Assembly (NCBI GenBank): GCA_002803225.1
Contig: NXFV01001537.1
Location: 62,001 to 126,000 of the forward strand
DNA: 64,000 bases
From: Gamarada debralockiae
Lineage: Eukaryota > Ascomycota > Leotiomycetes > Helotiales > Hyphodiscaceae
Direction of reading: 5' to 3'
This document shows positions 20,539 through 33,986 of the stretch, piece by piece. The notes beneath the pieces were generated by a model. It was not told the DNA's origin, did no database searches, and saw only the letters and a list, made by a program, of their open reading frames with translations. The first letter of the stretch is position 1. Every line of letters starts with the position of its first letter. The translations under genes were made by a program, and so were the position numbers.

Positions 20539-22959
20539 TCAGAACAACGCTTCCCTAACCTTCCCAACCTTATTCCGTATATCATACTCCACCCATTTCG
20601 CAACGCCTCTTCGCCCCGGCGCAACCACACTCCCCGGATTCATCACCTGACAACCCTCATAAGTCACGCAAAATGCAGGGGCTTCGGTATCAGCAAGTAC
20701 CATTGCTGTAGGCAAAGGATAGATTTGCAGCGCACTGGCGTAGTCCCAAAGTACTGGGCGTATCGCCATTCCAAACGGCGATAGGTATCCCTGATCCAGT
20801 ATCGTCTTGACCAACTTTCGGGCTGCGTGGAGATCACTCGACAGAGTATCATCCTCAGCGACGTGTGATTCCGCTGCTTGAACTTCCGGGTCGACTTCCA
20901 TGTCCGCAGGTTCTGCATCAGGCTCTACGGCAGGCGTAGTTGCCATATCCACAACCTCGTCTTCCTCGCTGGGCTTGGAAGACGAGAATTTGACGGCTGT
21001 TCGACGAAATCGTCCGGACATGTTGTCTCTGAAGAGGACAATCTCATGAGTTGGTCCAAAGAGGGTCATTCGTGAGGGATTGCTCGTCCATATCGCTTCT
21101 CCATCTGCTTTCTTGCCTCTCTCTTTCTCAACTTCTGCATTCGCCGTCGCGAACGCTCTCTTGATTCGCGAAGTAAACATCTCTGGGACTGCCTCTCTAG
21201 GTAAGGGCGTAGCTGCGCCTGCTGAGAATGAAGATGCCCAGCCGTCGTTATCGCCAGGCACGAAGATGAAGGTTGCGGATTGGAGGAGAGTCGGGTAGTC
21301 GGAAAGAATGGATGCCAGGCTGTCGAAATACTCTTTGTACTCGATGCTTCCACCGCTGCCTCCACGGGCCATAATTGCGTGCTGGACGAAATTGCCCATC
21401 AAGACGAAGGTCATGGGCGTGTCTTCTTCCGGCTCCGCGGCATACAGACCAAGAAGTTTCTTCAAGGCTTGGAGAGTTCGTGGTTGGTCAAGATTTACTT
21501 CCCCTATTACCACCATTCGACCTCTGCCTCCCATATCATCGTCTCCTGCCGGTTTCCTAATCAATCGTTGCTCGATCTTTCGCATTTTTGGCCCAACGGC
21601 ACGCTCACTACCCACACCCAAGAAATCAACCCATCCGAATCCACCGCCAGCTGCGATATCGCCTTCGCCATTCTTGCTACTGACGCCTAATGTGACTGCT
21701 CTCCGTTCACAGGGAGGTCCTCCGATGAAGAAGCCTATGAATTTGCCACCAATGGTTCCTCCAATACCTCCAGTGCCGCCAAGAACTCCACCTACGTTGC
21801 TGCCCTCCTCTTCGTAAGTTCCATCGACTAGAACAATCATTCCAGGGGCAAACCAGGCTCCATCCTCAGGAATTGGCTTTGCATGTGTGAGATCTAATGC
21901 AATGCTGCCAGTTAAATCGTTGATTGCTAAAGTCCCGGTTGGGGAGATCGTCAAGAGACCTAGAAGCATGTGATTGCTTCCATTTCGGCCGAGGAGATTT
22001 GCGATTGGAGTGAGTTTGTAGAATTGTTGGGCGGTGGCTAAGGAAGATGATGACCGTCCTAGGGAGGGAACTTTTGTGGTCTCAAATGTTGGTGCTTGAA
22101 AGGCTTCATTTCTGAGAAGGCGTTGATGAATGAGGTTGTATCGATTTCGGAAAACTTGGGTCTTGTGGGCTGGCGATGGAAGTAGTGATGGTTTGGATGC
22201 GTCTCTATATTAGAGGTTAGTTTTGGTAAATAGGAGTAAATTTTGCACCAACCTGTCAAAATGTTTCTTGCCAACATTGTACACAAGGCGAGGCTGCTCA
22301 AAAGCATCGATGACCTTCAGCCACTTCCTTGGATCTCTGAGCCCGTCATCTTCTTCCTCGTCTTCAACATCCAAAGTCGACATACCCAGACTCGACTGGC
22401 TATCCTCCCTCCCCAAAACATTCGGCCGTAGTCCCAGCCTCGTGTGTGAGACTTCCCCATTTTGTGAGGATCCTAAAACAAGACTGTTCTGCCGACTGAG
22501 CTCTCTGCTTGCAACAATTCTTCCTCCACTCATGCTCCCTTCCAAATTCTTGAGGATATCCTTCAGATCATTGCCGTCCCCGTCCACAATAACCCCACCA
22601 TTCCGACTCTTCCAGCTTTTAGCAACCTCCTCGAGCACTTTTTCTGCTAAGCCTTCTTCTCGCCATTCTGTACCACAATGCCTCCCTATAAATGTCGCTA
22701 GGACTTGTAACGCAGAGGAAGTAAGCGTTAAGCTGTGCTTCTTGGTGAAGGTTCGGAATGCTAGGGGTCGTAACGTTGCGGGAGGAAGGAGGACTGGGAG
22801 TATGCTAGCTTTTGCTGCAGCAGTTGTTACATTGAAAGGATGTACTGGAGTTCCGAATGCCGGGGACGAGGAAGGGATTGGATTCAATGGCGCTGGAGTG
22901 GGAGGGGGCCTGAATATAGGAGCGGCTCGAGGTTTTTCTACATGATTAGGTCGACTCAT
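20539..22959 (-). CDS. DPB2: DNA polymerase epsilon subunit B
   Basis: Two exons on the minus strand, 22959..22253 and 22204..20539, join in phase to 790 aa; the intron is 48 nt. Dpb2 is the essential second subunit of the leading-strand polymerase and links Pol2 to the CMG helicase. The N-terminal part has a Pro-rich start and KKHSLTLTSSALQVLATFIG. The C-terminal half shows the inactive phosphatase-like fold of B subunits: MVVIGEVNLDQPRTLQALKK, then FVLMGNFVQHA, then FIFVPGDNDGWASS, ending PVLWDYASALQIYPLPTAMV and NPGSVV. The start at 22959 (MSRPNHVEKP) is preferred to an upstream in-frame ATG because conservation begins there. It is divergent from the NASP gene over 305 bp. Confidence 0.94.
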
Positions 22960-25851: not shown

Positions 25852-28007
25852 TCAAACAGCGTTCGATGGCGTTGTGCTAGCCCCACCTCTCAGATGTGAT
25901 GATGATCCCTTGAACAATGACTGCCAAATGAATGCTTCACTAAGAAGTAGCTCGATATCCTTCTCGGTCCAGTCCCTCGTCGGAAGAGCTTGGAGAAACA
26001 TCATGACTTCTTGGAAGTCCATTTTGAGTAATTTGTCAGACCATTTAACCAGAAAGGCGACGCAGACATAGAGGTGGAACTCAGAGAAGCCCTGCTCCTC
26101 AGCCTTCGATTGTTAGAATAAATATGATTCTAGGACAGAATGTTACTCACCATATACGTGTCCCACATCCTGATGGTGTTTCTGACGCTGATTTCTCTCA
26201 TCAAAAGACAATTCATCCACCGGAAACTGAACTGTATAAATTCAACACCTTCTTGCTCCAGGTGCTTCGCTAGGGAAGCGTCTATCCTCGCTGTCAGATC
26301 GTGAAGTGCTGACACTTGACGCTGAATGCCAGGTTGAGCGAATATGTAATTATCCTGGATACCATCCAGCAATTTTGTTAGGCACCAAAATGAATCTGCT
26401 TCGACGGCATCGAGAACGGGCTTTGGCAACTGTCCAGGATCCATGCCACTTTCAACATCCGAATCCGTAATATAGCTCGCAAGAAATACCTGCCAGAAGG
26501 GCGTGACGAGGTCGTTGATACCTTGGACGTAGCCACTAGCAGGATGCCGTACAGCCCATACATATAAAATCCTTTCCAGGGACCTTTGAGTAGCTTCGTA
26601 GCCGTACAACTCTAAATGTGGATTAGTTCGGGGAACATCAATGCTGATTTGATGCCATATTGCTTCATCCAGTCCTCTCGTCTTGCCGGTTGGCGCAGAA
26701 CTGGTGCCACCCCTTTCAAACGCTTGCCGTACGCCATCAAGATACTCCTTTCTTTTCCGCTCCAAAGTCCCCACCCGTCTCTCACTGCTCGTTGGAAGAT
26801 ATCCAAGAAGCAGTTGCCAGGTCATCGCGCGGACTTCTTCTGGTACGCCTGACCACGCCGCAGCTCTCAAGTCTGTCAGAGAAATCGAGGTGGCTTGTAA
26901 TATCTTCTTGAACTTATTAATCCTGGTTATTCGGGCGGAATGGGCATCGATATCTTTAGGAGAAGCATCGGTTGGTACCGGTGGGTGATTGATAAGGTGT
27001 AGTGAGTTCGCCGGGTCTCTCAGAATCTCTTTGTACTGAGGCCTTAAGATCTTTCCTTCAGTCTTTTTGGCCACAGGATAACTTGGTGTTGGGCGCTCAA
27101 TGGCGATATCTGCACTATTCGAGTATCTTCGAGGCCCGAAGCCACCAAAGCTCCCTTGTAAACCGTGTCCAAATGGCGAGAGATTCCCCGCCGACTCTGT
27201 ACTACTTTGCGCGGGATCCTTTCTTGTTTTCCTCTTCATGCTCGATATGCTCGGCAACCCAAAATCGTCCCCATCATCATTTTCGTAGCCGTATTCATCT
27301 TCTTCCTCGCCTTCATCCTCTGCGTTCCAATCATCGTTTGTGCGAGACAAGAAGTCTGTATATGTTCTTCGAGGCGGAGAAGCTAGCCCAGAAGGAGCTC
27401 TGTTTAATGGCGGGGTGTCACTGCGACCTTTGTACAATGTAGAAGATGGAGGTGTCCTTGGGCGTGTCGAACTTGAACCTAAGGATCTTGCAATTGTATG
27501 TTAGCAGTGCAGGGAGTAATGTTGGGGTAATCCTTTGAGTACATACAAATTGTCGAACTTCAGCATATCCGCGTGGGAATAGGAAGCCCCCACAACCAGC
27601 CCAGGATCCCGAATCTGCTTTTGCGGGGGCGGATCGTGCCGGCCATCTGAAGTACGACTCCGCCAGAAAGGAGATGCTGATCTGAGGTCCCGTCAGCTCC
27701 TTGTCCTCTTGTAAACCCCTGCCCCGCAGCGCGTAGAGCGTCGCCGATGGATTTGGACACATACTCAGATCTTTCTACAAGCAGAAGTGCGTATTAGCAT
27801 TCTTCGGACTAGAGGTTGGGAAGGTAAAGGAAGCAGAACGTATAGCTGCTCTTCGAAGTAGATTTTGGCGGGGAAAGGAAACTGACCGACTTGAACCATC
27901 TCCTGCGTGGGAAGAACTACAATTAGCTTCCTATTCCTCGGAGTATCAGAATGTGAGGTGCTAACCTGCTGCACCGGCTTCTTGCTGCCATTTGAAGAAG
28001 AAAACAT
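25852..28007 (-). CDS. GYP1: Gyp1-type Rab GTPase-activating protein (TBC domain)
   Basis: Six exons on the minus strand (28007..27966, 27902..27887, 27774..27717, 27681..27547, 27486..26151, 26103..25852) join in phase to 612 aa. TBC proteins speed GTP hydrolysis on Ypt/Rab GTPases with two catalytic fingers. Both are present: ISIDVPRTNP gives the IxxDxxR arginine finger (about residue 360) and SGYVQGINDL the YxQ glutamine finger (about 396). The domain starts near AAWSGVPEEVRAMTWQLLLG and ends in FLQALPTRDWTEKDIELLLS of the last exon. The N-terminus carries EYVSKSIGDALRAAGQG, then a Ser/Pro-rich linker. The second exon is only 16 nt, and the intron 27716..27682 is only 35 nt; both are supported by phase and by clean coding on each side. 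Divergent from HRP1. Confidence 0.88.
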
Positions 28008-32641: not shown

Positions 32642-33159
32642 TGTAGAAAGATGAGAACTGGGTCGAAGTGGAGAGAAGGGAGAGATGTTGGAGTTGAGGC
32701 TTATCGATTGAACCCCACCATGATAAGCTGAGGCTAGCTATGTCGCCAGTCTTCAAGTAACAGAGACCACGGTTTATCCCAACTTTGAAATCAGTGATAG
32801 GAGCAAGAGAACAAGTCTTTTACTAATGTGGGCTCCAGTTTGAACTCACACAGCTTTCGATAATAGTGATTAGATTGGAACTTGGAACTATTGCCGTGGC
32901 CACTCAGCCATAAAGACCATTTTCTAACTAAGCATCTACTCCGTTTAAAGGACTGAAAAGATTGAGAATATCCGTCTGAATTATGTTTCCTCAACTATTT
33001 AAATCAACTGAACGATTATCATCTCGTTGTTCTGGTGTCCTCTGCGGCTAGTTACAAATGAGTGGCCCTCGGCCTCGCTTAAGTCCCCCGCGCACAAAAT
33101 TTGGCCTTCTTTTCTTAATGCCCGTATTTAGCAACATAAGAAATTTTTGATTTACAAAT
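32642..33159. other. spacer upstream of tRNA-Leu(UAA)
   Basis: The upstream flank of the PhyH gene and of the interrupted tRNA. AT-rich just before 33160 (33120-33155). No gene seen. Confidence 0.5.
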
Positions 33160-33183
33160 GCTCGTTTGGCCGAGTGGTCTAAG

Positions 33184-33231
33184 GTACGAAATCCAGCCCT
33201 TCCAGCAGTTCTTTGGACTAACTTTCCATAG
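33184..33231 (+). other. 48-nt spliceosomal-like intron in the tRNA D-stem
   Basis: Starts GTACGA, ends CCATAG, with CTAAC at positions 35-39. It lies between the first and second base of the 3' D-stem strand (TCTAAG / GCGATGG). Ends and branch-like motif match the pre-mRNA introns of this window rather than tRNA introns. Confidence 0.75.
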
Positions 33232-33289
33232 GCGATGGTTTTAAGTTGAATATCAACTTCCCACCATTATCGAAAGATGCGTGCGTTCG

Positions 33290-33337
33290 GCTAGTCTTCC
33301 TACTTCGCAGCGTAGAATTAAAGCTAACATTACATAG
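33290..33337 (+). other. 48-nt intron in the tRNA T-loop
   Basis: Starts GCTAGT, ends ACATAG, with CTAAC again at positions 35-39. It lies between tRNA positions 57 and 58. The donor would be of GC-AG type and weak at position 3. Removal restores loop TTCGAAC and a perfect T-stem. Confidence 0.7.
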
Positions 33338-33353
33338 AACCGCACAGCGAGCA

Positions 33354-33986
33354 AGTTCTCTTTTGTCCCTTTTCCTTTTTGTGCTTTACACAGTTGTGTC
33401 TTCCCTTCCTTTTTGTCAAGTTCAAGAATTGACAAACCGGGCTAGAATTTAAGCGAGCCCCTCAGCCCTCGCTACGACTTTCGAGAGTAGTCAAGAACTT
33501 AGCATAGCGTTCTCCTTTTAATTTTACCCATCTTCAAAGTACTTCCCTTTGGGTAGATTGATTAAACTCCCAGAAGTGAGCTCATTAACTCCAGGTGGAA
33601 AGCTGGCCCAATATCGATTCGTTCGCTGGAAGCCATCTACAAGATAGTATTCAATATTAAATCGATATGTGCGATTTGCCACTTTACGTGGTACCTGCTC
33701 CACGAGATTCATTCTCACAAAATTGGTATGGGCAAGCTTGAATGGTAACAAAGGAGCGGAAAGCTTCGTAGTCCATATTTATTAGTTGATTCTACGCATT
33801 AAGTACGTGGACCATATGGCTGGTCCTCCCGCCCACGTTCATACAGCCTCCCAAAGCGCCTTTTATATCATGCAGTGAAGACCGCTGCCAACGTAGAACC
33901 CAAAACAATGCTGTTGCTCCATACGTAACCAGACCAATAGAGATAAGATAACGAACTCCTTGGATACATGCACACCTCCCTCTCAA
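33354..33986. other. spacer between tRNA and four-TM gene
   Basis: Apart from the T-rich tRNA tail, no gene. A short minus-strand frame at 33751-33524 has no recognisable features. Confidence 0.5.
33376..33380 (+). terminator. possible Pol III terminator
   Basis: TTTTT, 23 nt beyond the tRNA-Leu(UAA) 3' end, with shorter TTTT runs at 33361 and 33370. A T-rich tail in the right place supports Pol III transcription; no 5-T run occurs inside the tRNA gene. Confidence 0.45.

Follow-up and report, generated by a model that had tools for sequence, protein, structure and literature searches.

A helotialean nuclear tRNA-Leu(UAA) gene, one case among many in its genome, whose precursor is very probably matured by two splicing systems

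How can a nuclear tRNA gene be interrupted in both its D-stem and its T-loop, and what would remove the inserts? This question is raised by positions 33160-33353 of a 64-kb stretch of Gamarada debralockiae DNA (the window, analysed at its full length). Two proteins encoded there match Hyphodiscus hymeniophilus: DNA polymerase epsilon subunit B at 87% identity (its best match with an organism name) and a TBC-domain protein at 93%; the other named top matches are mostly from Helotiales. The analyses described below make it highly probable, in our judgement, that the locus is a helotialean nuclear tRNA-Leu(UAA) gene requiring two splicing systems to mature its precursor, and that it is one case among many in the genome.

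Gene anatomy and splice signals

A reading made from the letters of the window without database searches (the sequence-only reading) had proposed that an 82-nt tRNA-Leu(UAA) with all stems paired remains once 33184-33231, 33246-33261 and 33290-33337 are excised. ARAGORN confirms this on the spliced sequence: tRNA-Leu(taa) is called with a complete cloverleaf, every stem paired, a long variable arm and a UAA anticodon. The call is unchanged if just the two 48-nt inserts are excised, with the 16-nt anticodon-loop intron retained. By hand count, the inserts lie in the D-stem (approximately 23/24), at 37/38 and in the T-loop (57/58). Only intron 2 occupies the canonical position of eukaryotic tRNA introns (37/38), and the proposed combination of one canonical and two non-canonical introns is thus upheld. 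Left unconstrained, the 82-mer does not take up a cloverleaf in its minimum-energy fold (z = -1.51; an equal or better fold was obtained for 18 of 200 shuffled sequences). The features of the locus, all on the plus strand, are as follows.

33123-33148 (+): upstream AT-rich element CGTATTTAGCAACATAAGAAATTTTT, likely to serve as a Pol III (TBP/TFIIIB) start element
33160-33183 (+): exon 1, 5' acceptor strand and D-arm to position 23
33184-33231 (+): intron 1, 48 nt, spliceosomal type, in the D-stem (5' splice site GTACGA, 3' end ATAG)
33218-33222 (+): putative intron 1 branch site, CTAAC
33232-33245 (+): exon 2a, end of the D-stem, 5' anticodon arm and anticodon TAA
33246-33261 (+): intron 2, 16 nt, canonical tRNA intron at 37/38 of the tRNA splicing endonuclease type (ARAGORN)
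33262-33289 (+): exon 2b, 3' anticodon strand, variable arm, 5' T-strand and TTCG
33290-33337 (+): intron 3, 48 nt, spliceosomal type (GC-AG), in the T-loop (5' splice site GCTAGT, 3' end ATAG)
33324-33328 (+): putative intron 3 branch site, CTAAC
33338-33353 (+): exon 3, remainder of the T-loop, 3' T-strand, 3' acceptor strand and discriminator A
33361-33364 (+): T-run beginning 8 nt beyond the discriminator base, the first likely Pol III terminator (further T-runs extend to 33380)

In its genomic form the gene escapes detection, as had been predicted for standard tRNA finders and as holds for ARAGORN and Rfam. ARAGORN called no tRNA on the full 64-kb window, nor on genomic 33100-33420 with the intron search on, and the locus has no Rfam match at the gathering threshold. 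The sole Rfam tRNA match of the window, at 1719-1828 on the minus strand, is a second tRNA-Leu without a spliceosomal insert. By our reading its anticodon is CAA, against the ARAGORN label Met(cat), and its canonical intron is long, at 29 nt according to ARAGORN.

Insert 1 has the form GTACGA...ACTAAC...ATAG (3' part GGACTAACTTTCCATAG) and insert 3 the form GCTAGT...GCTAAC...ATAG (3' part AAGCTAACATTACATAG); the putative branch A lies 10 nt ahead of the 3' end in both. Four neighbouring registers of insert 1 and two of insert 3 give an identical spliced RNA (hand count), the GT/GC-AG register being included each time. The boundaries of the sequence-only reading had, by its own account, been derived from the fold, with splice sites unmentioned, and they equal the GT/GC-AG boundaries, so that two lines of evidence agree independently. 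That reading was right about the gene and the sites of its introns; it missed the spliceosomal splice sites and branch points, as well as the recurrence of such introns in other tRNA genes.

Both 48-nt inserts have the features of U2-type introns: GT or GC at the 5' end with AG at the 3' end, CTNAY shortly before the 3' end, and a length and signals like those of mRNA introns of the same genome, for which the yardstick is two introns only. One of these (22205-22252, minus strand) is 48 nt long and reads GTTGGT...AAACTAACCTCTAATATAG with CTAAC; it is supported by homologous proteins, and its removal cuts the gaps from 25 to 9. The other (26104-26150, minus strand), in the TBC gene, is 47 nt long, reads GTGAGT...TTCTAACAATCGAAG with CTAAC and is likewise supported by homologous proteins; its limits were set where the two protein matches end (26151 and 26103), and the re-splicing trial used a 59-nt candidate. 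The 30 candidate mRNA introns predicted ab initio in the window include clear false positives and were not taken as a yardstick. The 5' site of intron 3, GCTAGT, is of the weak, rare GC type and counts against a spliceosomal origin of this insert. Judged by their signals, the non-canonical inserts of tRNA-Leu(UAA) are spliceosomal-type introns, which are predicted to be spliced out.

Recurrence of the introns in other Pol III genes

We searched the draft assembly (54.3 Mb in 1112 contigs) for other interrupted tRNA genes using fixed patterns for Leu/Ser D-arms, one gapped pattern, a T-arm pattern and a Lys-type D-arm pattern. The Leu/Ser patterns gave 10 sites (8 in the reversed control) and then 8 sites (control 2), all 8 of which were inspected. 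Two of the 10 matches to the gapped pattern (control 19) are tRNA genes, Leu(UAA) and Leu(CAG), the other eight having been judged from the matched letters alone. Matches to the T-arm pattern were mostly due to chance (87 sites versus 104 in the reversed control); all 87 were covered, 30 of them as listed loci, 53 by retrieval of the surrounding sequence and 4 as sequences already known. The Lys-type pattern yielded 53 sites (control 98): one was already known, two (L128 and L129) were taken further and 50 were left. A search with RF00005 gave 17 matches among the best 63 of 1952 candidates, which is no census, and a DNA search with the joined 82-mer was uninformative, returning no match even at its own locus.

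Twelve further nuclear tRNA genes were modelled with such introns, most of them with two or three inserts each, giving a total of 13 genes and 25 non-canonical introns: Leu(UAA), Leu(CAG), two Leu(CAA), Leu(UAG), Ser(GCU), Asp(GUC), Gly(CCC), Gln(CUG), Arg(UCG), Glu(UUC), Lys(CUU) and Thr(CGU). As 14 genes without such inserts were also seen, 13 of 27 modelled genes are interrupted, a proportion that does not come from a random census. The introns are 44-63 nt in length and begin with GT (24) or GC (1); all end in AG as modelled (22 in YAG). CTAAY is found within the last 22 to 3 nt of 18/25 introns and CTNAY in 23/25, with two introns lacking CTNAY in this stretch. All 13 spliced models give a full-length tRNA in ARAGORN, with the anticodon as modelled in 10 and shifted in three, for which ARAGORN places the anticodon and intron differently and reports SeC instead of Leu(CAG), Lys instead of Leu(UAG) and Phe instead of Gln(CUG). 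Runs of T4-T5 occur inside some inserts of the Leu-CAG, Leu-UAG, Arg-UCG and Thr-CGU genes and might halt Pol III early. Internal exons between two spliceosomal-type introns are 8-11 nt long in the Lys, Gln and Ser tRNA genes (L128 on C187, L079 on C433 and L035 on C984), and that of the Thr(CGU) gene (L047 on C15) is 5 nt; all of these are very small for spliceosomal exons.

Several tRNA-like loci were left out of these counts: L094, L129, L059, L057, L049, L076, the three units of L017, two sets of repeats (L062/L067/L070 and L054/L061/L063/L087) and the tRNAs of contig C63, which are taken as mitochondrial. In L094 (C606:105145-105615), a tRNA-Thr(AGU), a GTAAGT...CTAAT insert lies close to the T-stem, and hand modelling did not fix its exact junction. 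L129 resembles Ile(UAU) and is called as no tRNA by ARAGORN. The units of L017 (C68:96979 onward) lie within approximately 1 kb, with ARAGORN introns of 77, 73 and 84 nt. The repeats form two dispersed families with tRNA-like T-arms and are perhaps SINE-like; by eye, the upstream part of L070 resembles that of an interrupted Leu(CAA) gene (L032).

GT-AG introns partly guided both the finding and the modelling of these genes, and the counts of 24/25 GT and of AG throughout are therefore not independent evidence. For this reason, we rate comparisons between paralogues and permutation tests more highly. Comparison of the Asp gene (L060) with an intact paralogue (L071), and of the two Leu(CAA) genes with each other, defines inserts of 55, 53, 50 and 47 nt. 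A GT-AG register is available in each and is the sole register for the 53-nt insert; for the 47-nt insert (Leu-CAAa), the flanks used include one L029 base at which the paralogue differs, and the paralogue's exact letters gave no register. The two Leu(CAA) genes have different introns, three bases apart, and the same spliced exon sequence GCGTGTGGCTCAAG.

When the real motifs (GT, CTAAY and AG, 42-70 nt) were used to splice 97 segments, a junction-spanning tRNA resulted in 7; of 23 letter-permuted motif sets applied to the same segments, 20 gave none and 3 gave one. The 7 positive segments represent 6 of the 13 modelled genes and L094, the accepted junctions not having been compared singly with the hand models. 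tRNA-Leu(UAA) is not among them because the motif set required GT and intron 3 begins with GC. This test supersedes a looser splice survey, conducted without a control, in which 17 of 98 segments gave spliced matches, many clearly spurious. CTAAY was present near the 3' end in 18 of the 24 introns in the shuffle set (the second Thr-CGU intron joined later), compared to a mean of 1.6 and a maximum of 7 in shuffled sequences. An origin by introner-like copying was rejected: comparing every intron with every other (25 from tRNA genes, two from U6 and two from mRNAs) produced only 10-12-nt matches.

The U6 introns belong to a U6 snRNA copy (L132, C1066:53003-53125, minus strand) with two GT-AG introns of 55 and 52 nt and branch sequences ACTAAC and ACTAAT; a second U6-like copy (L131, C507:132-234, minus strand) is uninterrupted. 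Spliceosomal introns in an RNA normally made by Pol III are thus not foreign to G. debralockiae. As modelled, spliceosomal-type introns are present in no fewer than 13 nuclear tRNA genes and in one U6 copy of this genome. Invasion of every Pol III gene is rejected by 14 contiguous 5S rRNA 120-mers, found among the best 47 of 2575 candidates scored in a search biased to intact genes. These uninterrupted matches are spread over 14 contigs (C155, C1082, C312 and others).

Transcription, need for the gene and rival explanations

The A-box core TGGCCGAGTGG of the tRNA-Leu(UAA) gene is intact, while the B box is split by intron 3, such that the contiguous A and B boxes of a Pol III type 2 promoter are not present. 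No ORF overlapping the gene reaches 70 aa. With respect to the upstream AT-rich element, ATAAG is found between -58 and -15 in 14/29 upstream regions of tRNA genes and candidates, versus 2.4% of random 43-nt stretches of the window. According to the accessible part of PMC3978253, an upstream TATA-like element can replace internal promoter factors at some tRNA genes; a stand-in role of this kind for the element found here would fit the split B box.

TTA codons are in use in three ORFs of the window (11/855, 5/477 and 8/466 codons). Under standard decoding, these are read by a UAA anticodon only. The sequence-only reading had named intact tRNA-Leu(UAA) copies elsewhere as grounds for considering this locus a pseudogene. 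Pattern searches of the draft assembly, which would overlook a diverged and itself interrupted copy, found neither a contiguous Leu(UAA) D-arm and anticodon nor a second copy of exon 2b with up to 3 mismatches; a Leu(taa) on contig C63 sits in the cluster taken as mitochondrial. Given TTA use and the lack of a detected intact nuclear copy in this draft assembly, the tRNA-Leu(UAA) gene may well be necessary.

The locus might instead be an interrupted pseudogene, a tRNA sequence broken by insertions and unused. Eukaryotic tRNA genes with D- or T-arm insertions and intact synonymous copies have been assumed to be unused (PMC4090602, as far as its accessible text goes), and the weak GC-AG site of intron 3, the split B box and the unconstrained fold of the 82-mer all point this way. 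Decay does not account for an 82-mer in which every stem pairs after excision, for GT/GC-AG ends and branch sites in both inserts, or for the same pattern in 12 other tRNA genes; moreover, UUA codons are used, yet the pattern searches of the draft assembly found no intact nuclear Leu(UAA). We consider a pseudogene very unlikely. The split B box and the T4-T5 runs within some sister introns could also mean that the introns are spliceosomal and the precursor is a longer Pol II RNA from which the tRNA is later cut. Against this stand an upstream element common to uninterrupted tRNA genes, the T-run that begins 8 nt beyond the discriminator base, the lack of an overlapping ORF and the presence of such introns in U6, normally a Pol III product, in the same genome; a Pol II precursor is quite unlikely.

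A further possibility is that the tRNA splicing endonuclease removes all three introns by recognition of bulge-helix-bulge motifs, as in archaea and Cyanidioschyzon merolae, where non-canonical sites and several introns per tRNA are known (PMC4090602 and PMC3978253, in the portions available). In a loose test allowing any register, four pairs were found in 7/24 introns, compared to a shuffle mean of 4.0. The strict motif, a central 4-bp helix with a 3-nt bulge at the splice site on either side, is found in 0/24 introns (shuffle mean 0.36), and neither GT...CTAAC...AG nor the length of an mRNA intron is predicted by an endonuclease-only model, which we regard as extremely improbable. Taken together, the sequence evidence makes it very likely that this tRNA-Leu(UAA) gene is genuine and in use, that two of its introns are spliceosomal and the third is a tRNA intron, and that the genome has many genes like it.

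Proposed maturation and comparison with known systems

Textbook tRNA splicing is carried out by a protein endonuclease and a ligase, with no spliceosome. The tRNAs of G. debralockiae probably need two splicing machines to mature. In the proposed pathway, Pol III would initiate under the direction of the upstream AT-rich element and terminate at the T-runs, and the spliceosome would excise the two 48-nt U2-type introns in the nucleus, as their signals suggest. Folding into a tRNA would be possible only after these introns are gone and would be followed by end trimming; the 16-nt intron at 37/38 would be removed last by the tRNA splicing endonuclease and ligase, in keeping with established tRNA biology. 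This order, with the spliceosome acting before the endonuclease, is proposed because the endonuclease measures the folded tRNA body.

More broadly, we think it likely that spliceosomal introns have spread through the nuclear tRNA set in this fungal lineage, making protein synthesis dependent on the spliceosome for the supply of essential tRNAs, including this Leu(UAA), with the spliceosome acting before the endonuclease and Pol III using the upstream element; reliance on this element is suggested because a number of B boxes are split. If this is true, essential Pol III genes can be invaded by spliceosomal introns that then persist there, even when a promoter box is interrupted or an internal exon is only 5-11 nt long. 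Spliceosome action on uncapped short Pol III transcripts, Pol III function without a continuous B box and the order of the two splicing systems would be opened to test, and standard finders would undercount the tRNA genes of such fungi.

Among the literature matches listed (titles and starts of abstracts, with most subscription papers and bioRxiv outside the search), there is no report of spliceosomal introns in tRNA genes, nor do the available parts of PMC4494063, PMC6461891, PMC12730881 and PMC11782384 contain one. Non-canonical tRNA introns are described in archaea, nucleomorphs and C. merolae and are rare in eukaryotes (PMC4090602 and PMC3978253, accessible sections). Those of C. merolae, of cryptophyte and chlorarachniophyte nucleomorphs and of archaea likewise lie in the D- and T-arms, several per gene, beside the 37/38 intron; in the same sections, bulge-helix-bulge motifs and the tRNA endonuclease are linked with the introns of C. 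merolae and archaea, and the Guillardia introns are 3-24 nt long with a mode of excision that is not established. The G. debralockiae introns differ from all of these in being 44-63 nt in length, with splice sites and a branch point and no strict bulge-helix-bulge. Compared to the canonical eukaryotic nuclear tRNA intron at 37/38, intron 2 is alike and introns 1 and 3 are different.

Ascomycete nuclear rRNA genes contain mRNA-type introns. Such introns are the subject of a 1993 title cited in PMC11782384 (consulted in part); they too are spliceosomal introns in a non-Pol II transcript, with rRNA rather than tRNA as host. The spliceosomal introns of fungal U6 snRNA and U3 snoRNA genes (PMC5832005, available text) are similarly short, with GT-AG ends and a branch site, in genes for small structured RNAs; in contrast, it is tRNA genes that host the G. 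debralockiae introns, up to three of them per gene and in addition to a canonical tRNA intron. Both the kind of intron and the kind of gene are thus known, and it is their combination on such a scale that appears to be new.
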